Origin: Phycicoccus sp. Root101
GTDB taxonomy: Bacteria > Actinomycetota > Actinomycetes > Actinomycetales > Dermatophilaceae
Reading direction: 5' to 3'
DNA length: 64,000 nucleotides
Assembly: GCF_001426245.1 (NCBI RefSeq)
Contig: NZ_LMCM01000010.1
Span: 62,001 to 126,000, forward strand
Shown: positions 45,303 to 61,006 of the stretch, one piece after another
Numbering within the stretch: position 1 is the first letter of the stretch
How the letters are laid out: each line of letters begins with the position of its first letter
The notes under the pieces: model-generated
What the model saw: only the letters and a program-made list of their open reading frames with translations
Databases searched by the model: none
Told to the model about the DNA's origin: nothing
Made by a program: the position numbers and the translations under genes

Positions 45303-45332
45303 GGGTCCAACCGTGAGCGGCGTCGGCTCCGA

Positions 45333-46109
45333 ATGACCGGCGTGCCCGACCTGACCTACCGACTCGTGATCCGCGCCTGCCACGTCCTGTTCCGGGCGCT
45401 GGGGCTGCGGATCGACGTCCGGGGTGCGTACCGCCTGCCGCAGACCGGACCGGTCATCGTCGCGGCCAACCACAGCAGCTTCATCGACTTCATGTTCGTC
45501 GGGCTGGTGGCGACGGCCAGGGGGCGGCTGGTGCGGTTCATGGCCAAGAAGTCGGTGTTCGACGCACCGGTCTCCGGTCAGCTGCTGCGCGGGATGCACC
45601 ACATCCCGGTCGACCGCGCCCACGGCGAGACGGCGGCCCGTGCGGCGTACCGCGCCCTGCTCGCCGGCGAGGTCGTCGGCATCTACCCGGAGGCGACGAT
45701 CGGTCGGGCGTTCGTCGTCAAGGACCGGGTGGACGTCAAGCGCGGCGCCGCCTACCTGGCCCTGCGGACCGGGGCGCCGATCGTGCCGGTCGCGCACTGG
45801 GGGGTGCACCGCATCTTCACCGTCGGGGGACGCTGGAGCCTGCGCCGGGGCACCGCCGTCCAGGTGCTCGTCGGCGACCCGATCACGCCGATGCCGGGCG
45901 AGGACGCCGAGGCGCTGACGACGCGGGTGCACGACGTGCTCGTGGGGATGGTCGAGCGGCTCGTGGACGCCTACCCCCAGAAGCCGGCGCAGCCGCATAC
46001 CGCGTGGTGGTGGCCGGCCACGCGCGGTGGCGCGGCCCCCGCAGCAGACGAGGCGCGCCACCTCGACGAGGAAGCGCGCCTCAAGGCCGACGCCGGCCGC
46101 CGCGGCTGA
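45333..46109 (+). CDS. 1-acyl-sn-glycerol-3-phosphate acyltransferase (PlsC family)
   Basis: The 258-residue protein has the PlsC motif I as NHSSFID near residue 47 (NHxxxxD) and a motif III variant IYPEAT near residue 118, where the usual EG is EA. AKKSVFDAPVSGQLLRGMHHIPVDR is motif II. It most likely acylates lysophosphatidate or a related lipid at the membrane. Its C-terminal tail is hydrophilic and Ala/Arg-rich. It is convergent with the EtfD-like gene. Confidence 0.82.
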   Translation: MTGVPDLTYRLVIRACHVLFRALGLRIDVRGAYRLPQTGPVIVAANHSSFIDFMFVGLVATARGRLVRFMAKKSVFDAPVSGQLLRGMHHIPVDRAHGETAARAAYRALLAGEVVGIYPEATIGRAFVVKDRVDVKRGAAYLALRTGAPIVPVAHWGVHRIFTVGGRWSLRRGTAVQVLVGDPITPMPGEDAEALTTRVHDVLVGMVERLVDAYPQKPAQPHTAWWWPATRGGAAPAADEARHLDEEARLKADAGRRG

Positions 46110-46133
46110 CGGGTCCGGACGACCCCGACCCTC

Positions 46134-46183
46134 GCTTTGGGTGCCCAAGTGGTCGGAAATCCGACCGTCTGGACACCCAAAGC
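46134..46183. repeat. Imperfect inverted repeat between convergent genes
   Basis: Outer arms GCTTTGGGTG (46134-46143) and CACCCAAAGC (46174-46183) pair perfectly, and an inner GGTCGG/CCGACC pair closes on a short AAAT loop, with mismatches between. It sits between the acyltransferase and etfD stops and may be a bidirectional terminator. Confidence 0.6.
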
Positions 46184-46202
46184 CGGGGTGGGGGGCGAGG
46201 GG

Positions 46203-48500
46203 TCAGACGGGGGCGGGCTCGCTCGTCGCGGCCTCGGTGGGCACGTCGTCGCCGGGGCGCTTCACCGCGGCGAGCAGCATCTGCGCGACGTCGACGACCT
46301 CGACCTCTTCGGCCTTGCCCTCGGACTGGGCCGCGGTGAGGCCGTCGGACAGCATCACCCGGCAGAACGGGCAGCCGATGGCGATCCGCTCCGCCCCGGT
46401 GGCGATCGCCTCCTCGGTGCGGTTGGTGTTGATCCGCGTGCCGAGCTTCTCCTCCATCCACATGCGGGCGCCGCCGGCGCCGCAGCAGAACGACTTCTCC
46501 TTCGTGCGCTCCATCTCCTTGAGCTCGACACCCGGCAGGGCGCCGATGAGCTCGCGGGGCGGGGCGTAGACGCCGTTGTGGCGACCGAGGTAGCAGGGGT
46601 CGTGGTAGGTCACGGTCTCCGCGGTCGAGGCCACGTTCTTCAGGGTCGACTTGCCGGGGGCGTCAGCAGGCCGGGCCACCGGGACGAGCTTCTTCTCGCG
46701 CACGAGGCGGTTGAGCAGCTGGGTGTGGTGGACGACCTCGTACTTGCCGCCGAGCTGCGGGTACTCGTTCTTGATCGTGTTGAAGCAGTGCGCGCAGGTG
46801 ACGACGATCTTGGTCGCTCCCACCTCGTTGAGCGTCTCGACGTTCTGCTGGGCGAGCATCTGGAAGAGGAACTCGTTGCCGGCGCGGCGTGCGGAGTCAC
46901 CGGTGCACGACTCGCCGTCACCGAGGATCGCGAACGAGACGCCGGCTTGGTCGAGCAGCTCGGCCACGGCGCGGGTCGTCTTCTTGGCGCGGTCCTCGTA
47001 GGCGCCGGCGCAGCCGACCCAGAACAGGTAGTCCACGTCGTCGGCAGAGTCCACGTCCTGGCCGAGGATCTTCACCGGGAAGGGCAGGTCCTTGGCCCAG
47101 TCGAGGCGGGCGCGGGCGGCCATGCCCCACGGGTTGCCCTTGTTCTCGAGGTTCTTGAACAGGCCTCCGAGCTCGTTGGGGAACGCGCTCTCGATGAGGT
47201 TCTGGTACCGCCGCATGTCGACGATCGCGTCCACGTGCTCGATGTCGACGGGGCACTGCTCGACGCAGGCACCGCAGGTGGTGCACGACCACAGGACGTC
47301 CTGGTCGATGACGGCGTCGGGGCCGTGCGGGTTGTAGGCCGCGAGCGGGTCGGTGATCGAGTAGCCGGTGTCGCCGATGAGCGGCACCTCGGCGAGGGCG
47401 GCCGCGCCCTCACCCAGACCCTCGCGCTCCGACTCCGACGCCAGCAGCCACGGCGCCTTGGCGTTGGCGTGGTCGCGCAACGTCATGATGAGCATCTTGG
47501 GGGACAGCGGCTTCTCGGTGTTCCACGCCGGGCACTGCGACTGGCAGCGGCCGCACTCGGTGCAGGTGGAGAAGTCGAGCAGGCCCTTCCAGGTGAAGTC
47601 CTCGACCTTGCCGACGCCGAGCGCCGCGTCCTCGTCGAGCTCCTCGATGTTCTCGAAGTCGACCGGCGCCCCGCCGACCATGAGCGGCTGGAGCTCGCCC
47701 AGCGACGTGCGTCCGTCGGCGTGACGCTTGAAGAAGATGTTGAAGAACGCGAGGAACCGGTGCCACGCGACCCCCATGGTCGGCGTGAGCGAGATGGTGA
47801 TCATCCACGCGAACGAGATGAGGATCTTCACCGCGGCGACCACGACGATCACGGTCTCGAGCGTCGACGCCGACCCGCCGAACCCGGCACCCAGCCAGGC
47901 GGTCAGCGGGTAGTGCAGGGCCGTCGCGTGCTCGTCGCCGGTGGCCTGGCCCAGGGCGTACTCCAGGGCCCGCAGGCTGATGATGCAGATCGTGACGCCG
48001 AGGATGGTGAGCTCGACGTAGTAGGCCTGCCAGAAGTTCGAGCCGAAGAACCGCGAGCGCCGCCCGCCCTCGCCGGCGGCGCTGCGCGGGTGGTTCTTCT
48101 GCCGGATCGCCATGAGGGTGAGGATGCCGACCAGGCCGGTCCACGCGAAGAACTCGGTGACCCACTCGTAGGGGAAGAAGTGCCCGATGAGGGGGAGCGC
48201 GAAGTCCGGCTTGGCCAGCTGCCCGAAGGCGTTCACCAGCGTCAGGAACAGCACGCCGAAGCTGATCATCGTGAACCAGTGCGCCACCGCGACGACCGGG
48301 AGCCGCGACATGCGGGTGTGCCCGAGGAACTCGCGCAGCAGCGTCACGGTGCGCGTGCCCTTGTCCCCGGTGCGGGTCGCGTCCGGCGAGCCGAGGCGGA
48401 ACACGGACAGGAAGTGGCGGATCACGCGGGCGAAGAGGGCGATGGCCACGAGCGTGACCACGCCGCAGACGACGAGCGCGACGATCTGGAGGGCAGACAT
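46203..48500 (-). CDS. etfD: Membrane Fe-S protein, EtfD-like (ETF:menaquinone oxidoreductase candidate)
   Basis: The 765-residue protein has five to six N-terminal membrane helices (about residues 5-255) of nitrate-reductase-gamma type, which bind haem and quinone. Two 4Fe-4S motifs follow, CTECGRCQSQCP and CTTCGACVEQCP, and then two cysteine-rich CCG domains (GCAGAYEDR with CAHCFN, and HDPCYLGRHN with FCCGAGGARMW). This matches Mycobacterium Rv0338c (EtfD), shown to accept electrons from ETF during fatty acid beta-oxidation and pass them to menaquinone. An alternative ATG is at 48509. The fadE gene in this window fits the pathway. A palindrome lies 20 bases upstream of the start. Confidence 0.83.
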   Translation of the reverse strand: MSALQIVALVVCGVVTLVAIALFARVIRHFLSVFRLGSPDATRTGDKGTRTVTLLREFLGHTRMSRLPVVAVAHWFTMISFGVLFLTLVNAFGQLAKPDFALPLIGHFFPYEWVTEFFAWTGLVGILTLMAIRQKNHPRSAAGEGGRRSRFFGSNFWQAYYVELTILGVTICIISLRALEYALGQATGDEHATALHYPLTAWLGAGFGGSASTLETVIVVVAAVKILISFAWMITISLTPTMGVAWHRFLAFFNIFFKRHADGRTSLGELQPLMVGGAPVDFENIEELDEDAALGVGKVEDFTWKGLLDFSTCTECGRCQSQCPAWNTEKPLSPKMLIMTLRDHANAKAPWLLASESEREGLGEGAAALAEVPLIGDTGYSITDPLAAYNPHGPDAVIDQDVLWSCTTCGACVEQCPVDIEHVDAIVDMRRYQNLIESAFPNELGGLFKNLENKGNPWGMAARARLDWAKDLPFPVKILGQDVDSADDVDYLFWVGCAGAYEDRAKKTTRAVAELLDQAGVSFAILGDGESCTGDSARRAGNEFLFQMLAQQNVETLNEVGATKIVVTCAHCFNTIKNEYPQLGGKYEVVHHTQLLNRLVREKKLVPVARPADAPGKSTLKNVASTAETVTYHDPCYLGRHNGVYAPPRELIGALPGVELKEMERTKEKSFCCGAGGARMWMEEKLGTRINTNRTEEAIATGAERIAIGCPFCRVMLSDGLTAAQSEGKAEEVEVVDVAQMLLAAVKRPGDDVPTEAATSEPAPV

Positions 48501-48519
48501 GGCGGTCATGCTACCCGCG

Positions 48520-48537
48520 GGTAAGCGTCCGCTTACC
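48520..48537. promoter_or_regulatory. Candidate operator palindrome upstream of etfD
   Basis: GGTAAGCG-TC-CGCTTACC is a perfect 8+2+8 palindrome, 20 bases before the etfD start. Its form fits a TetR-family operator, the regulator class that often controls fatty acid genes. Beyond it, 48600-48749 holds an AT-rich promoter-like patch (about 48630-48665) that likely drives cysK. Confidence 0.5.
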
Positions 48538-48749
48538 GGTTTGTGACCCGGCTCAACCGCGTGGCGTCGGACCGGTCCCCGTGCCGGTACCGGACCCGTA
48601 GCGGCCGGGGCGCGGACGGCCGTTGCACCCGTCATAACGATCTGTTGGAATATCCATAACGCGTTCTTCGCTTGCCTGAGAGAAGGACACGACAGCCTGC
48701 CCAACGCCGCGCTCGAGGTGAGCCCGCGGCATACCGAAAGTAGAGGCGC

Positions 48750-49676
48750 ATGCCGATCCACGACGACGTGACCCAGCTCATCGGCAACACCCCGCTGGTG
48801 CGCATCAACCGCCTCATCGACAGCGACGCGACCGTCGCCGCGAAGCTGGAGTTCTACAACCCGGCCTCCTCGGTCAAGGACCGCATCGGCGTCTCGATCA
48901 TCAACGCCGCCGAGGCGTCCGGCCAGCTCGAGCCCGGTGGCACGATCGTCGAGGCGACGTCCGGCAACACCGGCATCGCGCTCGCGATGGTGGGCGCCGC
49001 ACGCGGGTACAAGGTCGTGCTGACCATGCCCGAGACCATGTCCAAGGAGCGCCGGGCCCTGCTGCGCGCCTACGGTGCCGAGCTCGTCCTCACCGAGGGA
49101 GCCCTCGGTATGAAGGGTGCGGTCACGAAGTCCGAGGAGATCGCCGCCGAGCGTGGCGGCGTCCTCGCGCGCCAGTTCGCCAACGAGGCCAACCCGGAGA
49201 TCCACCGCAAGACCACGGCGGAGGAGATCTGGAAGGACACCGACGGCGAGGTCGACATCGTCGTGGCCGGCATCGGCACCGGTGGCACGATCACCGGCAT
49301 CGGCCAGGTGCTCAAGCCCCGCAAGCCCGGTCTGCAGATGATCGCCGTGGAGCCGGAGGAGTCGCCGATCCTCAACGGCGGCCAGCCCGGCCCGCACAAG
49401 ATCCAGGGAATCGGCGCCAACTTCGTGCCCGAGATCCTCGACCGCGACATCTACGACGAGGTCATCGACATCAACGCCGAGACCTCCGTCGAGTGGGCTC
49501 GGCGAGCCGCTCGCGAGGAGGGCCTGCTCGTCGGCCTGTCCTCCGGCGCGGCGCTCGCTGCCGCCGACCAGGTCGCCCGTCGCCCCGAGAACGCCGGGAA
49601 GACGATCGTCGTGATCATCCCGTCGTTCGGCGAGCGCTACCTGTCGACCATCCTCTTCTCCGACCTCCTCGACTGA
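48750..49676 (+). CDS. cysK: Cysteine synthase A
   Basis: The 308-residue protein is a PLP enzyme with [11 protein letters not shown] near residue 10, the PLP lysine in [11 protein letters not shown] (about residue 44), [12 protein letters not shown] and [12 protein letters not shown]. These are the hallmarks of O-acetylserine sulfhydrylase. It makes cysteine from O-acetylserine and sulphide. AGTAGAGGCGC precedes the ATG. It heads an operon with cysE, 17 bases downstream, whose product forms the regulatory complex with CysK in other bacteria. Confidence 0.93.
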
Positions 49677-49693
49677 CCGGCGGCGCACCCCTC

Positions 49694-50293
49694 GTGACCC
49701 TTGCCCTGTACGCGCGGCGCGCGCGGAGCCGCATCGTCGACGACCTCGACGCGGCCATCGCGCGCGACCCCGCGGCGGCCTCCCGGCTCGACCTGGCGCT
49801 CAACTCCCCGGGGTTGCACGCGATCTGGGCGTACCGCGCGGCGCACCGGCTGTGGTTGCGCGGGGGTGCGGCCAAGCCGTTCGCCCGGCTGCTGTCGACA
49901 GTGGTGCGGTCACTGACCGGCGTGGAGATCCACCCCGGTGCCACCATCGGCCGTCGCTTCTTCATCGACCACGGCATGGGGGTCGTCATCGGCGAGACCG
50001 CAGAGGTCGGCGATGACGTCATGCTCTACCACGGGGTCACGCTCGGCGGCCGGTCGATGCAGAAGGTCAAGCGCCACCCGACCGTCGGCAGCCGCGTGAC
50101 CATCGGCGCCGGTGCCCGCGTCCTGGGCCCGGTCGACATCGGTGACGACGTCCAGATCGGCGCCAACTCGGTCGTCGTCAAGGACGTCCCCACCGGCGCG
50201 ATCGCGACGGGGATCCCCGCCGTGATCCGCTTCCCGGAGGGTCGCGAGGACCCCTACGAGCTCATGTTCAAGGACCCGGCCATCTGGATCTGA
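49694..50293 (+). CDS. cysE: Serine O-acetyltransferase
   Basis: The 199-residue protein has a short N-terminal helical part and a left-handed beta-helix of hexapeptide repeats ([46 protein letters not shown]). The catalytic His lies in [11 protein letters not shown]. The form without the long N-terminal domain is the EpsC/CysE type of Gram-positives. It acetylates serine with acetyl-CoA. The GTG start lies 18 bases after the cysK stop. It ends in DPAIWI, a Ile C-terminus that suits docking into CysK. It is convergent with the CHAT operon. Confidence 0.92.
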
Positions 50294-50345
50294 CGCCCTT
50301 CCGTGGCCTGGGGCAGGGTCAGTTCTCCTTGTGCCAGAACGGGAT

Positions 50346-52922
50346 TCAGGCCGGCGTATGCGGTGCAGCCCAGTCCGCGCCGTACAGGCAGAACGCGCGG
50401 GCTCCCGGGTGCTCGGCCACGGTGACCGCGAGGGCCCGGGCGGCGGGGACCCCGCTGCTGAGCCGGCGGTGGTAGTCGACCATCGCGACCGCGGCCACCT
50501 CGTCACCCACCGGTGCCACCGCCGCCACGACGGAGCGCGCACCGAGCGAGAGCAGCGCTGCGGTGAGGCCGAACGGTTCGTCGCCGGGGCGCAGGTCCGA
50601 CTGCCCGACGTCGCACGCCGACAGCACGACGTGCCGTGACCGCAACGGCCTGGGCAGCTCGTGCGCGAAGACCGGGCCGTCGGCGAGGTGCAACGAGGAG
50701 AAGAACGGGTTCTGGCGCTCGTGCGTCCCGTGCGCGGCCACGTGCACCACGGTGTCGGTGGCCAGGGCGGTGACGAGTCGCTTGCTGTCCTGGGTGCCCC
50801 CGTGGTCGGCGCCGCTGCCCGAACCCCAGACCGCGGCCACGTCTGCTGCCTCGGCGACCGCCCTGCGCAGGCTCGGGCCGGCGAGCGAGGTCACGGTGGT
50901 CGGGCCCTCGGCCGGGGGTTCGGGGGTGGCCCAGCGGGTCAGCGACGCGGCCACGGTGACGGGGCGGCCCGCGGCACCTGGCAGGGCGGTCCACGGCACG
51001 CTGGCCAGGGCGCGGCTCGGTGCCACGACCACCCCGCACCCGTCGGGGAGCCGGAGGTCGCCGAACACGACCCGGTCGAGCTCGGCGAGCGAGGCGTCGA
51101 CGGCCCGTCCGACCGCTGCGGCCAGCGCGGGGTTCGTCGCGGCGAACGCCTGTGCGCGCAGGTCGCGGACCAGCCGGTCGGCCAGGGTGGTCACCGTGGC
51201 GACCGTCCCGAGGTGGCGCACCCGGCTCCGACGGTGCGCCCCGACCTCGAGGACGTACTGCTGACCCGCGTGTGCGAACAGCACGAGGGCGACCTCGTCA
51301 CGCTCGCCGAGGGCGGCCCGCGTGCCGGTGAACCCCGCCGCCTCACCCGGGGTCCGTCCTGACGCGGTGCCCGCCACCGGCGCCGGCTCGTCCTGGGTTG
51401 CGTTCCGCTCGCTACGACCGGACGTCGACCAGTCGCGCTCGGCGATGCGCCCCTCCAACGAGGCCACCTGCGAACGCAGGGAGGCCTCCTCCTCGCCCGG
51501 CGCGGTGCTCCCGAGGCGCAGCCTGGCCTGCCGCAGGTGCGCCATGAGCTCGGCCGTCTCCGCGTCGGGCGGGGCGGACACCGGCGGCAGCCGGTGGGAC
51601 ACGGCACGCCACCGCTCGACGCTGTCGAAGATGCGGCGGGCGGACCCGCTGGAGAGGGCGTCACCGAGGTCGAACTCGCTGAGCCGCCTACCGTGCAGGG
51701 CGAGGGCGGCTCGCACCTCCAGGCTCTGGGTGGGCGCCGCCCGCCGTCCGAGCCGACGTGCGGAGGCGTGCACCTCGCGTCGAGCGCTGCGCGAGTCGCC
51801 CTGTGCCGCAGCAACCTTGGCGAACAGCAACCGGTCGTGCATGTCCCCGGCGAGGCCCTGGTGGGCCGCGCCACGGAGCCGCTGGGCGGCATCTGCGGCT
51901 CCGTCGACGTCGCCGCGCAGCAGCAGGGTCTCGACGTGGACGCGGGCCGCGAGCCGCTCCTCGGCGGTGACGGGGCGACCGGTCTGCAACCACGGCACGA
52001 GGAGGTCGTCGACGCCGCGCGGCACCCGGCCGCTGCCGAGGTCGACGGCCGCCCGGAGCAGCAGGGTGCTGCGTTGGCGACCCTCGGCTCCCCGAGCGCG
52101 GTAGATGCGGATCGCAGCCCCCAGCTCGTTGCGCGCGCTCGTGGCGTCGCCCTCGACGAGCGCGCAGGCGGCCAGGTCGAGCCGGATGTCGGCCTCCTCG
52201 AGGGCGAGGTGCTCGGTGCGGGCCTCCGCGAGGGCGCCGTGGAGCGTGTCGCGGGCCTGGGTGAGCAGCCCGGACTCGAGCAGCACCTGGGCCAGGTCCT
52301 GCTTGGCCCGGGCCCGGGCGACCGGTACCTCGACGTCGTCCGCGGCCCGCATGAGGGAGATCGCCTCGGGGAGGTTGCCGGCGTAGAACTCCAGGCACCC
52401 GAGGTTGTGGCGGGCCTTGAACTCCTGCTCGACCACCCCGCCCTCGACCGCGAGGGCGAGCGCCTCGTGCAGCTCGGCCCGGGCCTCGCCGAGCTCGAGC
52501 AGCGAGAGGTGGGACAGGCCGCCGTTGAGGAGCGCCGAGGTGCGTTCGCGTGGGGCGAGCAGCTGCATCGAGGCGTCGTCGACGTGCGCCAGGGCCGCGA
52601 GCGCGGACCGCCAGTCGGCCAGGGACACGTGGACCACGGCCTCCTGCACCCAGGTCAGCGCGTGCAGCCGGGGCGAGTCGGTGAGAGCGCGCACCTCCTC
52701 GAGCAGGGCCAGCGCCTCGTCCCGGCCGTGCAGCGCCACCGTGGTCCAGGCCAACGTGATGAGGATGCGCGACCGCGCCGTCACGGACCCACGCGTGGGC
52801 GACGAGGCGTCGAGGCGCAGTGCCCTGTGCAGTGCTGCCTCCGCCTCCCGGAAGCGCCCGATCCCGTTGAGGTGGCGTGCCCGGGTGAACAGCTCCTCGA
52901 CCGCCGGGTCGACGACCTCGAT
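50346..52922 (-). CDS. TPR-CHAT protease-like protein (caspase-like)
   Basis: The frame encodes a helical TPR-like region for about the first 500 residues (for example FREAEAALHRALRLD near the start) and a C-terminal CHAT domain with the caspase-type dyad: His in VHVAAHGTHE (about residue 731) and Cys in VVLSACDVGQ (about residue 770), counting from the start proposed here. CHAT domains are C14-like peptidases. The first canonical start is GTG 52784, but TPR-like sequence continues upstream to about 52920 with no ATG, GTG or TTG. ATC at 52922 is preceded by AGGGG at proper spacing, so it is taken as tentative start. It is the last gene of a four-gene operon with subtilase and sigma factor. 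Confidence 0.82.
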   Translation of the reverse strand: MEVVDPAVEELFTRARHLNGIGRFREAEAALHRALRLDASSPTRGSVTARSRILITLAWTTVALHGRDEALALLEEVRALTDSPRLHALTWVQEAVVHVSLADWRSALAALAHVDDASMQLLAPRERTSALLNGGLSHLSLLELGEARAELHEALALAVEGGVVEQEFKARHNLGCLEFYAGNLPEAISLMRAADDVEVPVARARAKQDLAQVLLESGLLTQARDTLHGALAEARTEHLALEEADIRLDLAACALVEGDATSARNELGAAIRIYRARGAEGRQRSTLLLRAAVDLGSGRVPRGVDDLLVPWLQTGRPVTAEERLAARVHVETLLLRGDVDGAADAAQRLRGAAHQGLAGDMHDRLLFAKVAAAQGDSRSARREVHASARRLGRRAAPTQSLEVRAALALHGRRLSEFDLGDALSSGSARRIFDSVERWRAVSHRLPPVSAPPDAETAELMAHLRQARLRLGSTAPGEEEASLRSQVASLEGRIAERDWSTSGRSERNATQDEPAPVAGTASGRTPGEAAGFTGTRAALGERDEVALVLFAHAGQQYVLEVGAHRRSRVRHLGTVATVTTLADRLVRDLRAQAFAATNPALAAAVGRAVDASLAELDRVVFGDLRLPDGCGVVVAPSRALASVPWTALPGAAGRPVTVAASLTRWATPEPPAEGPTTVTSLAGPSLRRAVAEAADVAAVWGSGSGADHGGTQDSKRLVTALATDTVVHVAAHGTHERQNPFFSSLHLADGPVFAHELPRPLRSRHVVLSACDVGQSDLRPGDEPFGLTAALLSLGARSVVAAVAPVGDEVAAVAMVDYHRRLSSGVPAARALAVTVAEHPGARAFCLYGADWAAPHTPA

Positions 52923-52930
52923 GGCGTCCC

Positions 52931-53485
52931 CTAGATCTCGATGGCCGGGGTGATGACCGGCCTGCTGTCGGGCAGGTCCAGTCGTCGCAGGAGCAGGTGC
53001 ACGAGCCCACGCTCGACCTTGGCGAAGCTGAACCGTCCCTCGGCGTCGGTCTCGGTGCTCTGGGTGCGCGAGCGTTCGCGCAGCTCGACGGCCGTGGGCC
53101 CGTTGCTCACCCAGCCGCTGAGCCGGGCGTGGACCCCGTCGATGGACTCGATGGTGATCATCGCGCTCAGGGTGTCGGTCGAGAACGTCACCGTGGCCGC
53201 CCGGTCGTAGACCTTGGCCCGGACCCCCACCGCCTCGGCGCTGGTCTGCATGATCTGCGCGACCTCGGCCTCGAGCGCCGCCACGGTCATCGCGAACTTG
53301 GCCCGCTCGGCCAGCCCCGGCGGCACGGGGTCGCTCGCGGCGAAGATGCTGCGGACGGTGGCCAGCGCCCGGAGGTCCTGTGCGTCCAGGGGTTCGGCCG
53401 CAAGACGGTCGAGCTCCCGATCGCGCTCCTGATCGCGCTCCTGGTCAAGCTCCCGGTCGTGGCTGCGGTCGGCGGATCCGGTCAT
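52931..53485 (-). CDS. Small protein between sigma factor and CHAT gene, beta-sandwich-like C-terminus
   Basis: The 184-residue product starts with a charged stretch of short repeats (RELDQERDQERDRELDRL), then a helical region LDAQDLRALATVRSIFAASDPVPPGLAERAKFA-like in pattern (about residues 32-75), and a beta-rich C-terminal half (about 85-184) resembling carboxypeptidase regulatory-like domains, with STETDAEGRFSFAKVERG. The helical part lies where anti-sigma domains are found, but no family is certain. Its ATG overlaps the sigma gene stop by four bases (ATGA), and the CHAT frame follows at once. It may regulate the sigma factor or be a protease substrate. Confidence 0.65.
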   Translation of the reverse strand: MTGSADRSHDRELDQERDQERDRELDRLAAEPLDAQDLRALATVRSIFAASDPVPPGLAERAKFAMTVAALEAEVAQIMQTSAEAVGVRAKVYDRAATVTFSTDTLSAMITIESIDGVHARLSGWVSNGPTAVELRERSRTQSTETDAEGRFSFAKVERGLVHLLLRRLDLPDSRPVITPAIEI

Positions 53486-54078
53486 GACGCCACCTCCCAG
53501 GCGGGGTCGTTGGTGAGTCCTGCCCGCAGCTTGGCGAGGCAGCGGCCGCGGGTGGGGCCGATGCTGCCGACGGGCATGCCGAGGGCCTCGGCGACGTGCT
53601 GGTAGTCGGGTCGCTCCGCGAGCGCCACGACGCGCAGCAGCTGCTGGCAGCGTTCGGAGAGGGTGGCGAAGTGCCGCCACAGCACCACCTGGTCCTGTCC
53701 GCGGACCACGACCTGCTCGGGTCCGTCGAGCGGGGCGGGCGTGCCGTCGAGCAGGTCGCCGATCTCTTCGCGCGAGTCCTCGCGACGGGAGCGGCGGGAC
53801 ACGGCCCAGGCCTCGCGGCGGGCGGTGGTGGTGAGCCACTTGAGGACGGCGAGCGGGTCCTGGATGGAGTCCTGGTGCTTGACCAGGGACAGCCAGGTCG
53901 TCTGGACGACGTCCTCGGCCGCCGCGCTGCCCAGGCCCTGGGCGCGGGCGGTGTGCCACAGCAGGGCCGTGGTCGCATCGACCAGGTCGGACATCGCCTC
54001 CGGGTCACCACCGCGGTATGCGGCGAACGCCAGCGCTGCGCGCTCGGCCAGACCTCCCGTGGTCCCGTCGGTCTGCAT
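53482..54078 (-). CDS. ECF-type sigma-70 factor
   Basis: The 198-residue protein has region 2 (LLWHTARAQGLGSAAAEDVVQTTWLSLVKH-like layout, about residues 38-75) and region 4 near the C-terminus (LAERPDYQHVAEALGMPVGSIGPTRGRC, about 150-185), which contacts the -35 element. It lacks regions 1 and 3, as ECF sigma factors do. The ATG overlaps the upstream subtilase stop by one base (TGATG) and GGGGGG lies six bases before it. A GTG three bases earlier is also possible. Its target promoters are not known; autoregulation of this operon is likely by analogy. Confidence 0.85.
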   Translation of the reverse strand: MQTDGTTGGLAERAALAFAAYRGGDPEAMSDLVDATTALLWHTARAQGLGSAAAEDVVQTTWLSLVKHQDSIQDPLAVLKWLTTTARREAWAVSRRSRREDSREEIGDLLDGTPAPLDGPEQVVVRGQDQVVLWRHFATLSERCQQLLRVVALAERPDYQHVAEALGMPVGSIGPTRGRCLAKLRAGLTNDPAWEVAS

Positions 54079-55691
54079 CACGAACCCCCCAGCGTCGTGG
54101 CGACCGCGCCGGCGGCTGCCTTGACGCGGGCCGCACGGTCCGGGCGGTCGAGCCCCTCGTCCGCCCCCTGGCAGCCGACGAGCTGGGCGGCCACGTCACC
54201 GGCGAGCGCGGGAGCGGCGAACGACGTCCCGCTCCACTGCCCGAACCCGCCAGAGTAGTCGTCGAGGTCGATCGAGCCGCGGGCCGGGTTCGTCGAACCG
54301 GGGAGGTTGAGCACGCTGCGGATGCTGCCGTCGAACGTCGTCGGCATGGTGCTGACCACGGCGGTGCCGCAGCGGTAGGCGGTGACCCACGAGCCGGTGT
54401 TCGAGTAGACCGAGACGGTCGGTCCGGTGGGGTTGAGCCCACCCGGGTTGTGTGCGCCGACGCTGACGAGGGGCACGTCGAACCCCGAACCCGTCGCGAA
54501 CGCGGCCGGGAAGAACTCGACGTCGCTCGACCCGTTGCCGGCGGCTGCCACGACCACGACACCGGTCGAGCTGAGGCCACGCAACGCGGTCACCAGCGCG
54601 CCCTCGTCCTCGAAGGTACCCGGGGTCTCGTGGTAGTAGCCCAGTGACATCGACAGCACGTCCACGGCGGGGCCGCGACGGCCGGGGTCTCGCAGGGCGA
54701 GGAGCTGTCGGGCGTAGAGCAGCTGCAGCGCGTCGATGACGTCGGCCTCGTCCGCGACCCCGTCGCCGTACATGATCGGGATGGCCATGATGGTGGCCTC
54801 GGGGCAGTGCTGCCTGACCACCCCGGCGATGAACGTCCCGTGGCCGGCCAGCCGGTCCAGCACACCGTTGACACGGTCGACGGTGACACCGGTGTTCTCC
54901 GGGTCGTCGGCCGGGGTGAAGACCAGCCCGACGGGGACGCCCTCGACCTCGACGTCCTTGATGACGCCTCGCTCGAACCAGGGGTGGGCACCGATGCCGG
55001 TGTCGAGCAGGGCCACGACCGGGCCGTCGGGCAGCTCGGCCGGGCACGGGTCCGGTGCGGCCCAGGTGACCGGGGACCGTCCGGACGGACCGCCACCGGG
55101 CAGGCCGGCCAGCCCCACGCCGTCGCCGTACCCGACGCCGTCGCCGTATCCGACGCCGTCGCCGTACCCGACGCCGTCCCCGTAACCCACACCGTCGCCG
55201 TACCCGACGCCGTCGCCGTAGCCACTGCCCACCATGACGTGGCACAGCTCGACCGCCGACGCGAAGCGCGGGTGCTCGGCACGGAAGTCCTGCAGGATCT
55301 TCCAGGCGTCGGGGGGTTCGACCGACTCACCAGGCAATGGCGCGATGAGGACGCTGGTCGAGCCGACCCGGTCGAGCTCGTCGGACAGCTCGAGGCGCCG
55401 GAACAGGTCACCGAGCCCGGTCTCGCGACGTTCCTCGACGGTGTAGCGACCCTCGAGCTGCTTGCGCAGGGCGCTGATCGGGCCCTCCGCGCGGCCCTCC
55501 AGCTGCCCCCTGACGAGCAGGGTGTCACCGACGTACACGGTGGGGCTGGGCACCGGCTGGTCGCCGAGTCGCTTGCAGGTGGCCGGGTCCAGCGCGCGGG
55601 CTCCGAGGCGGCGGACCGCGCTGCCGGGCACCGAGAGGTGCGGGATGCGGCGGCCGGGTCCCCTGCTGGGCGTGGGGGTCACGTGTGCCAT
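54078..55691 (-). CDS. Cytoplasmic-type S8 serine protease with Gly-rich repeat linker
   Basis: The 537-residue protein has an N-terminal domain (1-156) without signal peptide, a linker of six GYGDGV repeats (157-192) and an S8 subtilase domain with an intact triad: D230 in VALLDTGIGAHPWF, H284 in AGHGTFIAGVV, and S490 in QWSGTSFAAPALAGD. The oxyanion Asn is in VAAAGNGSSDVE. It is therefore probably an active cytoplasmic protease. It is the first gene of the operon and precedes an ECF sigma factor with a one-base overlap. GGAGAGCTC before the ATG sets the start. Its substrate may be the neighbouring proteins. Confident as subtilase, not in role. Confidence 0.87.
   Translation of the reverse strand: MAHVTPTPSRGPGRRIPHLSVPGSAVRRLGARALDPATCKRLGDQPVPSPTVYVGDTLLVRGQLEGRAEGPISALRKQLEGRYTVEERRETGLGDLFRRLELSDELDRVGSTSVLIAPLPGESVEPPDAWKILQDFRAEHPRFASAVELCHVMVGSGYGDGVGYGDGVGYGDGVGYGDGVGYGDGVGYGDGVGLAGLPGGGPSGRSPVTWAAPDPCPAELPDGPVVALLDTGIGAHPWFERGVIKDVEVEGVPVGLVFTPADDPENTGVTVDRVNGVLDRLAGHGTFIAGVVRQHCPEATIMAIPIMYGDGVADEADVIDALQLLYARQLLALRDPGRRGPAVDVLSMSLGYYHETPGTFEDEGALVTALRGLSSTGVVVVAAAGNGSSDVEFFPAAFATGSGFDVPLVSVGAHNPGGLNPTGPTVSVYSNTGSWVTAYRCGTAVVSTMPTTFDGSIRSVLNLPGSTNPARGSIDLDDYSGGFGQWSGTSFAAPALAGDVAAQLVGCQGADEGLDRPDRAARVKAAAGAVATTLGGS
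55116..55223 (-). repeat. Six 18-bp tandem repeats encoding GYGDGV linker
   Basis: Six direct copies of an 18-bp unit lie inside the subtilase gene, coding residues 157-192. Most units are identical; single silent changes (for example GGA, GGG and GGT glycine codons) show some age. They make a flexible Gly/Asp/Tyr linker. Confidence 0.9.
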
Positions 55692-56214
55692 GAGCTCTCC
55701 TGAGGGCGGTGCCGACCCTGGGGGGCGCGGGTGCGTCCACGGTCAGCGTAGTGAGGCGGGTGCGTCACAGACAGGAGTTCGGACGGTTCTTCCTGATACC
55801 TCCCGCGCGGGGCGAGTTCGGCGAAGCCGGTCAAGAGTCGCCCAAGAACGGGGCAAGGACTGGTCACGAAAGTTTCGCGCCGGATGTATCAGCGCGGCGG
55901 TCCCGCGCTCTTCTCCGGTGTCGGGCCCGATTCGGGGGAACGAGCCCGGCGGCAAGGAAAGGAAGACCTCATGTCATGCCGGAAAGACGCACGCCGACGG
56001 CGCCGTTCTGGTGTGGCTGGGGCGCTGGCTCGGGGGTGCCAGCGTGGAAGCCGGTGGTGCGGGGGGTCGCGCTGCGGGTTTGCCCTCAGGGGCACGTCAC
56101 CGGGTCGGCCGGGTCAGAGCAGGTGCTGGTCAGGGGTTTCCGGCACTCGTTCGACCAGGGCCACCCGGTGGCGTCCCTGAAGGTCTTGGCTGAGCCGCAC
56201 GGGGGTGCGCGAAA
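55692..56214. other. Gene-poor interval upstream of the CHAT operon
   Basis: No convincing gene is seen. The promoter of the minus-strand operon should lie near 55700-55790. On the plus strand an AAGGAAAGGAAG ribosome-binding-like sequence precedes ATGs at 55971 (69-residue Arg/Cys-rich frame ending at 56180) and 55976 (a frame with more coding-like third positions but no stop before the hairpin at 56215). Neither product resembles a known protein. It could be a degraded gene or a noncoding RNA ending at the hairpin. Confidence 0.4.
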
Positions 56215-56257
56215 GCCCGCGACGCGGCATACCGATCAGGTATGCCGCGTCGCGGGC
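56215..56257. terminator. 19-bp hairpin containing GGCATACC on both arms
   Basis: A perfect 19-bp stem (56215-56233 and 56239-56257) closes on GATCA, 35 bases beyond the stop of the YtxH-like gene on the minus strand. It may end that gene and any plus-strand transcript from the interval before it. Both arms contain the word GGCATAC/GTATGCC. Confidence 0.7.
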
Positions 56258-56291
56258 CTCGTCGTGTCCGTCGCCCGGCGAGGCGGTCGGC

Positions 56292-56624
56292 TCAGGGGAG
56301 CTTGTCGCCCCCGGGCCCGAAGCCCGAGGTGTCGGCGTGGAGCCGACCGTCGGTGCCGCGGTGGAGGGTCTCGGGCAGGTCCTCGCCGGTGAGGCGCTCC
56401 TTGGCGCTCGCCCCGGCCGTCTTGGCGGCCTCGCCGAGCTTGGCGCCGAGGACGGGCGCCTGTTCCTTGACGGCTTCCTTGACGGTCTCGACCCGGTGCT
56501 GGACCGGTTCGCTGGACCAGACCTGGCTGGCGCGGCCGCGGATCTGCTCGTAACGCTTCTGGCCCGCCTTCGCGCCGAGGACGTAGCCGGCGGCGACGCC
56601 GGCGATGAAGGACAGCTTGCCCAT
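56292..56624 (-). CDS. YtxH-like small protein
   Basis: The 110-residue protein starts with MGKLSFIAGVAAGYVLGAKAG, a short hydrophobic glycine-rich segment as in YtxH-type proteins, then KRYEQIRGRASQVW and a helical tail with alternating charged residues (ETVKEAVKEQAPVLGAKLG). It is probably membrane-associated and stress-related by family analogy only. AAAGGATCCACC precedes the ATG at 56624. It follows the DUF6328 gene on the same strand after 46 bases. Confidence 0.7.
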   Translation of the reverse strand: MGKLSFIAGVAAGYVLGAKAGQKRYEQIRGRASQVWSSEPVQHRVETVKEAVKEQAPVLGAKLGEAAKTAGASAKERLTGEDLPETLHRGTDGRLHADTSGFGPGGDKLP

Positions 56625-56670
56625 GGTGGATCCTTTGGTCGGTGTCCTCCGACAGTAACAAAAGCCCTGC

Positions 56671-57156
56671 TCAGGGGCCTTTCGGGCGGGTGAGGCGGTG
56701 CCGCAGCCCGAGCGGGAAGACCACCCAGGCAGCGACGAACAGCACCGCGCCGACGAGGGCCGCGACCACCCCGGCCCGCTGGCCGAGGACCAGGGCGAAG
56801 GTGAGCGCCATGACGCTGACGACGGCAGCCGCCAGGGTCGCCAGCCCGATGACGGAGACGTGGTGGGCGATGCTGACCAGGGTCTCCTTGCGCTGCTGCC
56901 GGAACAGCCAGCGGTGCACAGCCACCGGCGTGATGAGCAGACAGGTGGCGAGGATGCTCGCGCTGATCGCCACGACGTACGCCGAACGCTCGAAGTGGGT
57001 GATGTCGCGGAACGCAGGCTGGATCGGCAGGGTGAGCAGGAAGCCGGTGAGGATCTGGACGCCGGTCTGTGTGACGCGGAGCTCCTGCAACAGCTCGTCC
57101 CAGTTGCGGTCGAGCCGTTGGGCCTTGGTTTCGCCCTCGCGTTGGTAGCCGTCCAC
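56671..57156 (-). CDS. DUF6328 family membrane protein
   Basis: The 161-residue protein starts with a polar region containing NWDELLQELRVTQTGVQIL, then four membrane helices (about residues 35-60, 65-88, 105-125 and 130-150). FLLTLPIQPAFRD and ATCLLITPVAVHRWLFR match DUF6328, an actinobacterial family of unknown function. The GTG start at 57156 gives the family's usual length. The next gene upstream is a tRNA on the opposite strand. Confidence 0.82.
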   Translation of the reverse strand: MDGYQREGETKAQRLDRNWDELLQELRVTQTGVQILTGFLLTLPIQPAFRDITHFERSAYVVAISASILATCLLITPVAVHRWLFRQQRKETLVSIAHHVSVIGLATLAAAVVSVMALTFALVLGQRAGVVAALVGAVLFVAAWVVFPLGLRHRLTRPKGP

Positions 57157-57207
57157 GACGTGACGATACCGTTGGCCCCGGTCCGGCGGTCGTGTGTCGC
57201 AAGGCCT

Positions 57208-57294
57208 GGAGGGCTCGCATAGTGGCCTAGTGCGGCGGTCTTGAAAACCGCTATGGCGGCAACGTCATCGTGGGTTCGAATCCCACGCCCTCCG
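57208..57294 (+). tRNA. tRNA-Ser(TGA)
   Basis: The 87-base sequence folds as a class II tRNA with acceptor GGAGGGC/GCCCTCC, a long variable arm (TATGGCGGCAACGTCATC), anticodon stem GCGGT/ACCGC with loop CTTGAAA (anticodon TGA at 57242-57244), and the T arm GTGGGTTCGAATCCCAC. The 3' CCA is not encoded; CCG follows the discriminator G. Confidence 0.93.
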
Positions 57295-57426
57295 CCGACC
57301 CTCCGTGGGCACGGAGTCGCCCACCGTCGCCACCACGACCCTCGTTGCGTCAGCGAGCGGACAGAGCCGCAGCAGTTCTGGGACGAGTCTCTGATCATCC
57401 GATCAGCACGCGTCCAGGGAGTTGCG

Positions 57427-59448
57427 ATGAACACACTGACCACCCACCGGTTCCCGTTCCGGCCGCTCGTCCTCGCCCTGGCCCTGGCCACGCCGTTGGC
57501 AGTGGCCGGGACGGCCTCGGCCCAGTCCTCACCGAGCCAGCCGCCCTCGGCCCAAGCACGGTCCACCGCCTCCGGCGGGTCCGCCTCCCACGGCCGACCC
57601 GAGTCCGGACGCCCGGCGAAGGCCGGTACCCACAGCCCGGCCAGACCCGAGCACGCCTGTACCGAGAAGATGCACGTCGTCGAGCACCAGGGCCGGTCCT
57701 GCAAGGTCGCGAACGGCTTGTTCAAGGTCGAGCTCGCCGACGGGTCCTTCACCTACACCCACGGCCCGGACCCGGTCGAGGTCGACCACGACCACCACGA
57801 CCACGGAACGACGACACCCTCCACGAGCGGCCAGACGGGCAACCTCGCCAGCGTCGCCCGGAACCCGGTCTGCTCGTCGGCGAACCCGCACGGCAACTAC
57901 GGGATCCGCGCCGTCATCGCCATGCCGTCCGACGGGTCGCAGACCATCACGGTCGACCAGTTCCGGACCATGCTGAAGACGATCAACGGTGCCATCTACA
58001 AATCGGGCGTCGAGTCCGGGAGCGTCGGCGGGGCGGACCTGGTCTTCGAGTGCGACAGCACCGGGGCGATCCGGGTCGACGTCCAGCGGCTCGCCCACAC
58101 GAACGCCACATCGACCTTCGCCACCATCGTCGGGGACCTCAAGGCCCTCGGCTACACGTCGACCGCCCGCAACTACGCGGTCTACTACACCCACACGGCC
58201 AGCGCCGGCGGCCAAGGCTCCCTGATGAGCGACAGCAGCAACAGCGCCAGCAACGCCAACAACACCGGCGGTCGCTTCGCCATCGACTACGGCATCCCCC
58301 AAGCCGAGACGATGATGCACGAGATCGGCCACAACCTCGGCGCCGTCCAGCCGGGGGCCCCCTACGCGACCGGCACCACCACGACCGCCAGTGCCGGGAA
58401 CTGGGGTCACTGCTGGGAGGGCCAGGACGTCATGTGCTACAACGACAAGGGGTCCACGGACCCCGGCTACATCAGCTGGGTGTGCGCTGACTTCGACCAC
58501 TTCGACTGCGGCCACGACGACTACTTCGACGCCGTGATCGGCGCGGGCCAGGGCGCCACCTCGACGAGCTGGCTCGCGAGCCACTTCAACATCGCGGCCT
58601 GCTACGACGTCTTCGTCGTCAACCGGGCCTGCTCCGTGACGACCGGTGGTGACGTGACACCGCCCGCCGTCTCGGCCCCCACCCAGACCGTCCAGTACCT
58701 CGGACAGGTCAGCAACGGACTCGTCCCGGTGACCTACGCCTGGACGGCGAGCGACGTCAGCGGGGTGACCCAGGAGGACGCCTGGATCAAGGTCAACGGC
58801 ACCTGGCTCCAACTGAGCCTCGCCTCTGCCGCCGTGCGGTCGGGCACGTGGTCGCTCACCCCCGGCTCGACGTACCAGTTCGCGGTGAGGGCCAAGGATG
58901 CCAAGGGCAACTGGAGCGGGTTCGCGATGGGCCCGTTGCTCACGGTGGATGCCTTGCAGGAGAACTCGACGTCCATCAGCTACAGCTCTGGCTGGCTCGC
59001 CTACACGGGCAGCTACTTCGGCGGCCGGCAGTACTCCTCAGGCACCACCGGGGCGACGGCGAAGGTCACCTTCACCGGACGCGGGTTCGCCTGGTACGCG
59101 GCCACCGCGACCAACCGTGGCGTCGCGTACGTCTGGGTCGACGGCGTCTACGCCGGCACCGTCGACACCTACTCGCCCTCGACCTACCTCGCCCGGGGCG
59201 TGCTGACCCGCAACTGGACCACATCCGGGACGCACACGGTCCAGGTTCAGGTGGTCGGGACCACCGGGCGCCCGACCATCGACGTCGACGCATTCGTGGC
59301 GGGGGCGGGGGACGAGCCGGGCGGCTCGTCCCCCGCCCCGCTGTCGTCGCGAGTGTCGTGGATGAGGTGGTTTGCCCACGCCAGCGCAGGAAACCATGTA
59401 CAGCAGTACGCGAATTGCACGATCCTGTCCCTGACCGCCCACGCCTAG
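57427..59448 (+). CDS. Secreted zinc metalloprotease (reprolysin/metzincin-like) with C-terminal modules
   Basis: The 673-residue frame starts with a signal peptide ending near ASAQ (residue 33), a His/Pro-rich propeptide, and a catalytic domain with H298 of HEIGHNLGAVQ. HExxH and the Gly of metzincins are present, but the usual third His is Gln. A Cys-rich loop (HCWEGQDVMCY) and a fibronectin-like/beta C-terminal region (about 430-630, ending with TIDVDAFV) follow. It is probably exported to degrade proteins. The last 35-odd codons pass through a terminator hairpin and look like a read-through extension. The interval 57300-57426 holds a small palindrome CTGATC-ATCC-GATCAG at 57391. Confidence 0.8.
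   Translation: MNTLTTHRFPFRPLVLALALATPLAVAGTASAQSSPSQPPSAQARSTASGGSASHGRPESGRPAKAGTHSPARPEHACTEKMHVVEHQGRSCKVANGLFKVELADGSFTYTHGPDPVEVDHDHHDHGTTTPSTSGQTGNLASVARNPVCSSANPHGNYGIRAVIAMPSDGSQTITVDQFRTMLKTINGAIYKSGVESGSVGGADLVFECDSTGAIRVDVQRLAHTNATSTFATIVGDLKALGYTSTARNYAVYYTHTASAGGQGSLMSDSSNSASNANNTGGRFAIDYGIPQAETMMHEIGHNLGAVQPGAPYATGTTTTASAGNWGHCWEGQDVMCYNDKGSTDPGYISWVCADFDHFDCGHDDYFDAVIGAGQGATSTSWLASHFNIAACYDVFVVNRACSVTTGGDVTPPAVSAPTQTVQYLGQVSNGLVPVTYAWTASDVSGVTQEDAWIKVNGTWLQLSLASAAVRSGTWSLTPGSTYQFAVRAKDAKGNWSGFAMGPLLTVDALQENSTSISYSSGWLAYTGSYFGGRQYSSGTTGATAKVTFTGRGFAWYAATATNRGVAYVWVDGVYAGTVDTYSPSTYLARGVLTRNWTTSGTHTVQVQVVGTTGRPTIDVDAFVAGAGDEPGGSSPAPLSSRVSWMRWFAHASAGNHVQQYANCTILSLTAHA
59302..59339 (+). 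terminator. Terminator-like hairpin inside the 3' end of the metalloprotease frame
   Basis: A perfect 17-bp stem (59302-59318 and 59323-59339) closes on GGGC. It sits 107 bases before the current stop codon, which suggests that the original stop lay just upstream of it. Confidence 0.7.
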
Positions 59449-59491
59449 CGTGGGGTCAGAACCTGTCACAGGGGATTGGACGTCCGCTTTC

Positions 59492-59543
59492 GGGCGGCGG
59501 GCCGGAGGCCGGGCAACCCTGCAGCCCGGCCTTCGTGCCGCCC
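59492..59543 (-). terminator. Nested hairpin after the MocR gene
   Basis: Inner arms 59506-59514/59524-59532 (9 bp) and outer arms GGGCGGC/GCCGCCC (59492-59498 and 59537-59543) form a nested hairpin, 43 bases beyond the MocR stop on the minus strand. Confidence 0.55.
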
Positions 59544-59585
59544 GGATCAGGTGGCGGCAAGCCGGTCAGCGGGCAGCAGGCTGGG

Positions 59586-60947
59586 TCAGCGGGCGCGGCC
59601 GTTCCATCCGCCGGTCGTCGCGGCGTCGGCGAGCGCGTCGGCCAGCGAGTCCAGGGCCGCCTCGTCGCGGACGAGCCCGACCGTGGCGCGCACGTGGCCG
59701 CCGGGTCCGCTCGGCCCGATCCGGAACGGCGTCCCCGGCGCGACGCCGATTCCCTGGCTGGCCAGCCGAACGACCGCGGCCGTCTCGTCCTGGACGGGCA
59801 CCCAGATGTTGATGCCCTCGGTCCCGCCCACCTCGACCCCGCGCTCGCGGAGGCGGTCGACGACGCGGGCTCGCCGCGCGGCATACGTCTGCGCGGCGGT
59901 CTGGACCTGCGCGGTGGCGACGTCGTCGGTGAGCAGTCCGAGCAGCACCTGCTGGAGCAGCCTGCTCGACCAGCCCTGTCCGAGCTGGCGACGACCGTTG
60001 AGGTCGTTCAGGATCCGCGCCGGTGCGCTGAGGGCGGCGAGGCGCAGGTCGGGTCCGTGCGACTTCGAGAACGAGCGGATGTGCACGGTCTGCTCGGGGC
60101 GCCACTGCCCGAGGCTGACGAGCGGTGAGGGGGACAGCCCGGCGGCGGAGTCGTCCTCGACGACCACGGTCGGCGAACCCGACAGCAGGGCGGCGATGCG
60201 CTCAGCACGGCGGGACGTCATCGTCACTCCCGTGGGGTTCTGCGCCCGCGGTTGCAGGACGACCGCCGCCACCGGTTCGCGCAGGGTGGCCTCCAGGGCT
60301 TCGAGGTCCAGGCCCTCCTCGTCGACGGCGACGCCGACGAGCTGCACGCCGACGGACTCGAGCAGGTCGACCAACGGCGGGAACCCCGGGTCCTCCACGA
60401 CCACCCGGTCCCCGAACCGCAGCTGGGTCCGCACGAACAGGTCCATCGCATCCATCGCCCCGTCGACGACGGAGACCTCCTCCACGGCGAACGGCCAGTC
60501 CGCCACGAGGACCTCCGCGAGCGCCGGAAGCACCGGGTCGTCGAGGTAGCTGCCCGTCGTCGGAGCGGTGCGAAGGCCGGCGAGGGCCTGCCCCAGGTCG
60601 GGGAGCAGCTCAGGGTCCGGGACGCCCGTGGACAGGTCGTGGGCGAAGGTCGAGGGCCGTTCGAGGGCGGCGCGGTAGCGGACCGTGCCGCCGGACCGCT
60701 GGTCCAGGACGGTGGTGCCGCGGCGACCGTCGGTGGCCACGGTGCCCGACCGGGCGAGCAGCGCCCAAGCCGCACTCACCGTGGTCGGCGACAGGGCCAG
60801 CTCCGCCGCCACGGTCCGGATCGGGGGCAGGCGGTCGCCGGCGACGAGGAGCCCGTCGCGGATCGTCGCGGACACGGCATGCGCCAGTCCCTTCGCGGAG
60901 GGGGTGTCGAGGCGGGCCTCGAGGGCCGTGAGGGTGACGTGCGGCAT
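59586..60947 (-). CDS. MocR/GabR-type regulator (GntR HTH + aminotransferase fold)
   Basis: The 453-residue protein has an N-terminal winged helix of GntR type (DRLPPIRTVAAELALSPTTVSAAW-like layout, residues 35-70) fused to a fold-type I aminotransferase domain with PLP lysine K295 in RSFSKSHGPDL. MocR proteins bind PLP and an amino-acid ligand to control neighbouring genes; GabR for GABA is the model. It is divergent from mmsA and an aminotransferase gene, which it probably regulates. The ATG at 60947 is 60 bases from the mmsA start, with inverted repeats between. Confidence 0.85.
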   Translation of the reverse strand: MPHVTLTALEARLDTPSAKGLAHAVSATIRDGLLVAGDRLPPIRTVAAELALSPTTVSAAWALLARSGTVATDGRRGTTVLDQRSGGTVRYRAALERPSTFAHDLSTGVPDPELLPDLGQALAGLRTAPTTGSYLDDPVLPALAEVLVADWPFAVEEVSVVDGAMDAMDLFVRTQLRFGDRVVVEDPGFPPLVDLLESVGVQLVGVAVDEEGLDLEALEATLREPVAAVVLQPRAQNPTGVTMTSRRAERIAALLSGSPTVVVEDDSAAGLSPSPLVSLGQWRPEQTVHIRSFSKSHGPDLRLAALSAPARILNDLNGRRQLGQGWSSRLLQQVLLGLLTDDVATAQVQTAAQTYAARRARVVDRLRERGVEVGGTEGINIWVPVQDETAAVVRLASQGIGVAPGTPFRIGPSGPGGHVRATVGLVRDEAALDSLADALADAATTGGWNGRAR

Positions 60948-60952
60948 CTTTG

Positions 60953-61001
60953 CACCATAGCAATACTTCTATTGTGTTACCAGTGGATGGATCGTATGGT
61001 G
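60953..61001. promoter_or_regulatory. Divergent promoter/operator region of MocR and mmsA
   Basis: This AT-rich 49-base segment contains CAATA-CTTC-TATTG (60961-60974) and the wider pair CACCATA (60953-60959) / TATGGTG (60995-61001). It is the only place for both promoters and the operator of the MocR regulator; exact sites are inferred. Confidence 0.5.
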
Positions 61002-61006
61002 TGAGC

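Follow-up and report, generated by a model that had tools for sequence, protein, structure and literature searches.

What might two proteases do in one operon with a sigma factor and a further small protein? The window, a stretch of 64,000 nucleotides from Phycicoccus sp. Root101, carries a minus-strand operon with, in this order, genes for an S8 subtilase (537 aa; 54078..55691) with a D230/H284/S490 catalytic domain, an ECF sigma factor (198 aa; 53482..54078) with sigma-2 and sigma-4 regions and a conserved GSIGPTRGRC stretch, a small protein that we call C (184 aa; 52931..53485), and a TPR-CHAT protease (858 aa from an ATC codon; 50346..52922). Pfam scans identified Peptidase_S8 (E=4e-17), Sigma70_r2 (E=1e-7) and CHAT (E=6e-23; PF12770 at 82.1 bits, cut-off 24), and the NCBIfam scan likewise backs the S8, ECF and CHAT assignments, with the sigma-70 ECF family TIGR02937 scoring 58.0 bits against a cut-off of 42.9. 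While the preliminary description had all four genes joined by short overlaps, this holds for subtilase and ECF (1 nt) and for ECF and C (4 nt) but not for C and CHAT, where 8 nt separate the C stop from the onset of CHAT coding at ATC 52922.

The four-gene operon is real and conserved. Matches to C were present in 50 of 99 family genomes (54 places) when a single query sequence was used, in 104 of 186 family genomes in a profile search, and in 99 of 393 genomes of a class-wide draw. Taking 40 of the 54 family places, 40 class places and 40 further family places, and adding the window and three named loci, we assembled 124 loci, or 121 after removal of three duplicates, each as a stretch of 3.7 to 17 kb. 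As the loci were picked via a C match, the co-occurrence figures are conditional on C: subtilase, ECF, C and TPR-CHAT were found together in 108 of the 121 loci, in six arrangements, and in 119, C directly followed ECF in the order of the four genes. Hence, the four families are kept together across actinobacteria. Relatives retain both the neighbours and the catalytic residues, the loss of either of which the preliminary description had named as a refutation, so that its interpretation passed this check. Seven of the 121 loci showed only ECF and C within the fetched stretch (L086 lies at a contig end; L066, L076, L091-L093 and L095 are ECF/C pairs with neither subtilase nor CHAT there), so that C may have other roles as well. 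Three loci had CHAT without subtilase within the fetched stretch, L046, a locus with masked bases, was without CHAT, and L097 and L104 had no ECF above the threshold used. Pairwise distance correlations of the four proteins lay between 0.82 and 0.92 (32 loci, with eight named rows and rows missing a gene left out), and none of 500 permutations was as high, a congruent divergence as expected for joint inheritance, which vertical descent alone would also yield.

The CHAT protein matched three named relatives, all of them Phycicoccus records. All four genes also occur in a faecal scaffold with 74% GC that is recorded as an unverified 'Bacteriophage sp.' (L195; MT838002.1), where the subtilase is cut by the scaffold end; this is probably a mislabelled actinobacterial fragment. 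A mobile element was considered and rejected, as C matches a single PLSDB record, an 11.85-Mb Nonomuraea replicon. The recognised neighbours in window positions 45003-62497 are metabolic, namely, by Pfam, a PALP enzyme (48750-49676, plus strand), an Fe-S CCG protein (46203-49688, minus strand), a GntR-aminotransferase (59586-60947, minus strand) and an aldehyde dehydrogenase (60950-62497, plus strand); five of nine ORFs scanned had no Pfam family, and the PADLOC scan gave weak matches only.

The association of these genes is already in print. A passage of a 2022 review (PMC8999054), which cites Casas-Pastor 2021 and Huang 2015 on the ECF54 group, lists carboxypeptidase, subtilase and CHAT neighbours for it and proposes proteolytic control without an anti-sigma factor; judging from that passage, the gene set had appeared as context, without experiment. 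The operon described here shares with ECF54 an ECF sigma factor accompanied by carboxypeptidase-domain, subtilase and CHAT proteins, as well as the proteolysis proposed. Its genomic context is that of ECF54, with a weak carboxypeptidase likeness of C (CarboxypepD_reg in Pfam, E=0.02), and the Pfam and NCBIfam scans returned no family named ECF54. As a catalogue entry the operon is thus ordinary, and it is unusual in its details: new here, as inferred from sequence, are a near-cognate start of the CHAT gene, a zymogen with a hexapeptide array, and a GTATCA-N16-CTCCTG element, of which the start codon is the firmest point. In the excerpts that make up the literature searched, outside which the primary ECF54 classification papers lie, we found neither the near-cognate start nor the arrays nor the promoter mentioned. 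Together, these three details make the proteolytic control proposed for this ECF group testable by point mutations.

A second known system, the type III-E CRISPR protease switch Csx29-Csx30-CASP-sigma (described in the part of PMC10028731 used here), likewise joins a TPR-CHAT protease with a sigma factor and a small third protein, whereas the present operon adds a subtilase and lies in a genome without a RAMP protein. The preliminary description had suggested a CRISPR-free switch, and indeed no RAMP-family Cas protein (PF03787) is present in the genome. Neither are there CRISPR-like direct repeats in window 40-64 kb, where the only close direct repeats are those of the S8 array, and a CRISPR link was therefore rejected. 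Of the kinship between CHAT and Csx29 that had been suggested, a weak match remained (residues 697-803, E=0.0012), which is confined to the His/Cys active-site stretch, and the NCBIfam Csx29 score of CHAT, at 20.2 bits, falls below the cut-off of 300. C is set apart from Csx30 by NCBIfam and PDB sequence searches rather than by direct comparison. EACC2-caspase systems also contain an ECF sigma factor, together with a DUF1822 TPR protein, but their domains differ and they have no subtilase, a word absent from the text searched of PMC8195603.

We found the CHAT gene to start, very probably, at a near-cognate ATC codon (52920..52922, minus strand), to which the coding signal and the junctions of relatives both point. 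The preliminary description had chosen the GTG at 52784 (812 aa), which removes 46 conserved codons of TPR sequence; no ATG, GTG or TTG occurs in the CHAT frame between 53444 and 52784. Within the family, 51 of 75 junctions, counted from the C stop to the first TPR, contained none of these codons (43 of 75 when the search began 60 nt before the C stop, and 49 of 78 with yet other limits), and 39 of the 51 had an in-frame ATC while the other 12 had ACG or CTG. ATC is presumably the usual Ile codon in GC-rich genomes, so its third base alone is no evidence. Its frequency at the junctions, however, was 42 in 795 codons, where the 1.49% found in CHAT bodies would give about 12. Furthermore, an SD-like word was present at 35 of the 39 ATC starts (and missing at four) as opposed to 297 of 1290 internal ATCs, and Glu or Asp followed the ATC in 30 of 39. 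Canonical starts were found in the family loci for 71 of 71 S8, 79 of 79 ECF and 79 of 80 C genes, and for 29 of 78 CHAT genes; outside the family, 24 of 25 CHAT genes had one, the exception being L080.

Upon comparing codons in three groups of 8, 11 and 9 loci, which were picked for having ATC and in which its invariance is hence by choice, we observed that all three codon positions vary 5' of the ATC. From the ATC onward, changes gather at third positions in the window's genus and even more so in the g53 group, while the second group, which is more diverged, keeps just the codon following the ATC invariant and shows weak constraint beyond it, partly from length differences. The same position in relatives holds ACG, CTG, GTG or ATG, and of the ten genomes in the window's genus where C was matched, L146 has ATG and L149 has neither a canonical start nor ATC. 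The faecal scaffold L195 likewise has ATC at this place. In a tree of 92 CHAT proteins built with FastTree, the distribution of canonical and noncanonical starts needs 12 changes (L034 and L042 being scored canonical only via a GTG downstream of the ATC), indicating that the start state is inherited in blocks and yet has changed repeatedly. If the non-AUG start were an artefact, CHAT would begin at a downstream GTG or ATG, or its frame would be reached from C by frameshift or readthrough. Such an artefact could draw on the GTG at 52784 and on the canonical start present in 24 of the 75 junctions, but it is largely contradicted already by the onset of third-position-biased conservation at the ATC in the groups compared and by the ACG, CTG, GTG or ATG of relatives at that position, and we consider it highly improbable. 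A C-CHAT fusion through frameshift or readthrough was rejected, because the frame offset of CHAT relative to C varies among relatives and because, in several loci, a stop codon in the CHAT frame interrupts the stretch from the C stop to the ATC (in L137 and L140, it lies eight codons 5' of the ATC with no canonical start between).

The rare AUC start may hold CHAT output very low. A well-known precedent for such a start is infC of E. coli, whose AUU, a rare near-cognate start codon, ties synthesis to IF3. We therefore turn to infC itself, in 31 loci comprising that of the window's own genome and 30 from 60 family genomes (59 of the 60 have infC; L160, L165-L194). ATC stood at the expected infC start, after an AGGAG-type site, in 29 of the 31 loci, and two were unmatched by the pattern. 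Five loci (L169, L170, L172, L174 and L175) have an in-frame stop four codons 5' of the infC ATC with no canonical start between, L192 is a less clear case with an in-frame GTG just 5' of the ATC, and L187 has ATC at infC in a genome whose CHAT (L057) starts canonically. Initiation at ATC thus seems to be customary in the family, and CHAT appears to share it with the IF3 gene. The likeness to E. coli infC lies in the rare near-cognate start and the difference in its place on a protease gene; by analogy, CHAT may be under IF3 control. Kept across many family genera and apparently common to infC as well, the near-cognate start would be a rare natural instance of a start codon that seems selected as a throttle on a protease. 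An extended reading would put CHAT on infC's start-codon discrimination circuit and make the operon a translation-initiation sensor that triggers intracellular proteolysis. A shortage of IF3 relative to 30S subunits, or a lower start fidelity, would raise AUC initiation, CHAT would be made, and the sigma-protease loop would ignite, with the species-specific hexapeptide array of the subtilase as a matched bait or cleavage site tying CHAT to its own subtilase; we hold this to be quite improbable.

Both proteases appear intact, as the preliminary description had stated: all 42 aligned rows retain D230, H284 and S490 of the subtilase, and 41 of 42 retain His731 and Cys770 of CHAT (ATC-start numbering), the sole exception, L055, being a contig-end fragment. 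The subtilase was also rightly described as having no signal peptide, since none of 38 subtilases (with 3 rows at contig edges excluded) had a 12-residue stretch with a mean hydropathy of at least 1.6 in its first 40 residues; a 19-residue stretch of such hydropathy occurred anywhere in the protein in 18 of 41. Its structure model (mean pLDDT 78.5, pTM 0.84; low confidence at 444-465 and 475-485) predicts a propeptide-like domain at residues ~22-155, a disordered repeat linker at about 157-209, and then the catalytic domain. In Foldseek, it was aligned with unprocessed pro-subtilisin E, PCSK9 and pro-Tk-subtilisin over ~490-530 columns including gaps, at TM-scores of 0.40-0.43 by query length and an rmsd of 7-9 A, values that make a zymogen with a propeptide-like N-terminal domain likely rather than certain. 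The Pfam scan of the subtilase found no propeptide family.

At residues 157-192 (55116..55223, minus strand), the subtilase carries six identical hexapeptides GYGDGV, whose units all differ in DNA, at synonymous sites only. A motif common to other proteins of the genome was rejected, since the pattern had no match elsewhere in it and its five overlapping matches all lie inside the S8 array, and so was a beta-solenoid or other fold, as the model leaves 158-209 unfolded. The units read GYGDGV, GYGSGV or GYGEGV in the window's genus and differ between lineages elsewhere (GYWGGV, GETHGV, NPFMKT, PFTRGA and others). Exact arrays have, by construction, no nonsynonymous difference; their synonymous difference was mostly 0.2-0.8, and edge units raise pN to at most 0.16; L156 (synonymous 0.00) and L157 (0.14) argue against saturation. 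The serine codons of six GYGSGV arrays are all TCN, consistent with replacement of whole blocks and subsequent selection for unit identity. An array scan found none in many loci, including all listed divergent L096-L114 except L111 and L112, although these absences are to be read in the light of arrays that it missed and another scan finds (L054, L058, L059, L063, L064 and L067). Being constant in amino acids, varied silently and differing as a block between species, the array offers a handle on recognition by subtilase or CHAT, and our two favoured guesses are a CHAT-TPR binding site and a tandem cleavage site. It begins directly after a conserved His-Val-x-x-x-x segment. Pro-subtilisins are cut at such a His-Val segment, and the array, lying right behind it, may therefore form the mature N-terminus. 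Further along the predicted disordered linker, Arg205 of a GR-x-PV motif (codon 55077..55079, minus strand) is near-invariant (38 of 42 rows), as is Pro207, and Arg205 is a candidate processing site.

The gene right after an ECF gene is the usual place of an anti-sigma factor, and this position makes C a candidate anti-sigma factor. The zinc anti-sigma (ZAS) motif is HxxxCxxC; the window's C protein has no cysteine in its sequence and, hence, no zinc anti-sigma motif. Its model (mean pLDDT 88.6, pTM 0.52) predicts a helical N-terminal part (helices 6-30, 35-51 and 58-85) and a seven-strand beta domain, for which a Foldseek search against the PDB returned nothing at E<=0.001. C was assigned to no NCBIfam family, and its sequence had no significant match in the PDB. 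Among its invariant residues are Asp52-Pro53-x-Pro55 and the C-terminal Thr179-Pro180. Despite the 'carboxypeptidase' label, C looks like a non-enzymatic beta-domain protein.

Upstream of the operon, we found a promoter-like element, GTATCA-N16-CTCCTG (55772..55799, minus strand), which we propose as an autoregulated ECF promoter. It precedes S8, or ECF where ECF is the first gene, and 17 nt after its CTCCTGT lies a -10-like element, CACTACGCT (55745..55753, minus strand); 25 of 74 S8-first family loci have a CACTA[CG][GT]CT match upstream. Within 350 nt, GTATCA was found in 48 of 70 S8-first and 5 of 7 ECF-first loci of the family, and in 2 of 21 S8-first and 13 of 17 ECF-first loci of other families; it was not found within that distance in 22 S8-first loci of the family and 19 of other families. 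An inverted TGATAC lies further 5' in 44 of the 48 GTATCA-bearing S8-first family loci. The two-part element occurred in 27 of 110 loci with a subtilase in its exact form and in 34 of 110 with a looser pattern, and 2000 random stretches of the same loci, which can contain the promoters themselves, gave 34 for GTATCA and 11 (exact) and 15 (looser) for the two-part forms. This distribution makes the element probably real. In the window's own genome, the exact two-part pattern occurs once, at the operon, and one mismatch adds three more matches, compared to 17 for a reversed control pattern, which suggests that the regulon consists of this one operon, although a looser motif could escape such a search.

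We tentatively favour, at somewhat less than even chances, a sigma switch of the ECF54 kind that is cytoplasmic, works by proteolysis and amplifies itself. C would hold the sigma factor inactive, and the TPR part of CHAT would sense a trigger, upon which CHAT would cleave C and/or free the pro-subtilase at its linker (Arg205-x-Pro-Val). The freed sigma factor would drive its own operon via GTATCA-N16-CTCCTG, a positive feedback with more of both proteases as its main output, while the AUC start would hold CHAT at a very low basal level and may couple its synthesis to IF3, as the AUU of infC does in E. coli. This switch has to be weighed against a published proposal for ECF54 (PMC8999054, section 3.3, seen as a passage) that proteases keep the sigma factor low, in which subtilase and/or CHAT would degrade ECF directly without an anti-sigma factor and C would be an adaptor or accessory. 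That C has neither a zinc anti-sigma motif nor a clear structural match agrees with direct degradation. The place of the C gene, which is that usual for an anti-sigma factor in 119 of 121 loci, speaks against it. As the genes overlap or nearly so and share one orientation, a sigma factor that acts on the conserved promoter would also increase the proteases that destroy it, and the resulting negative loop is conceivable but would not make a switch; we regard direct degradation as rather doubtful.

Alternatively, a two-protease cascade could itself be the output: CHAT would mature the pro-subtilase at the linker and the subtilase would attack many cell proteins, leading to suicide or dormancy, with ECF and C setting expression only. 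The predicted zymogen architecture, the near-invariant Arg205 and Pro207 in a predicted disordered segment, and the exact promoter pattern at this operon alone in the genome would all suit such a cascade. We nevertheless judge it unlikely, as the pro-subtilase could process itself and 3 of 121 loci have CHAT but no subtilase within the fetched stretch.

The region divergent from the operon holds a divergent, plus-strand copy of the element, GTATCA-N16-CTCTTC (55886..55913). A divergent small ORF was considered here and rejected, since the frames found overlap or differ between species and only a hairpin-like stretch is kept in the genus. At gathering thresholds, Rfam found tRNAs only in the window. 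The hairpin-like stretch, GTGCTGGTCAGGGGTTTCCGGCAC (window 56123-56146, plus strand), lies downstream of the divergent GTATCA, is strongly conserved in eight genus loci, and may be a small RNA or belong to a terminator.
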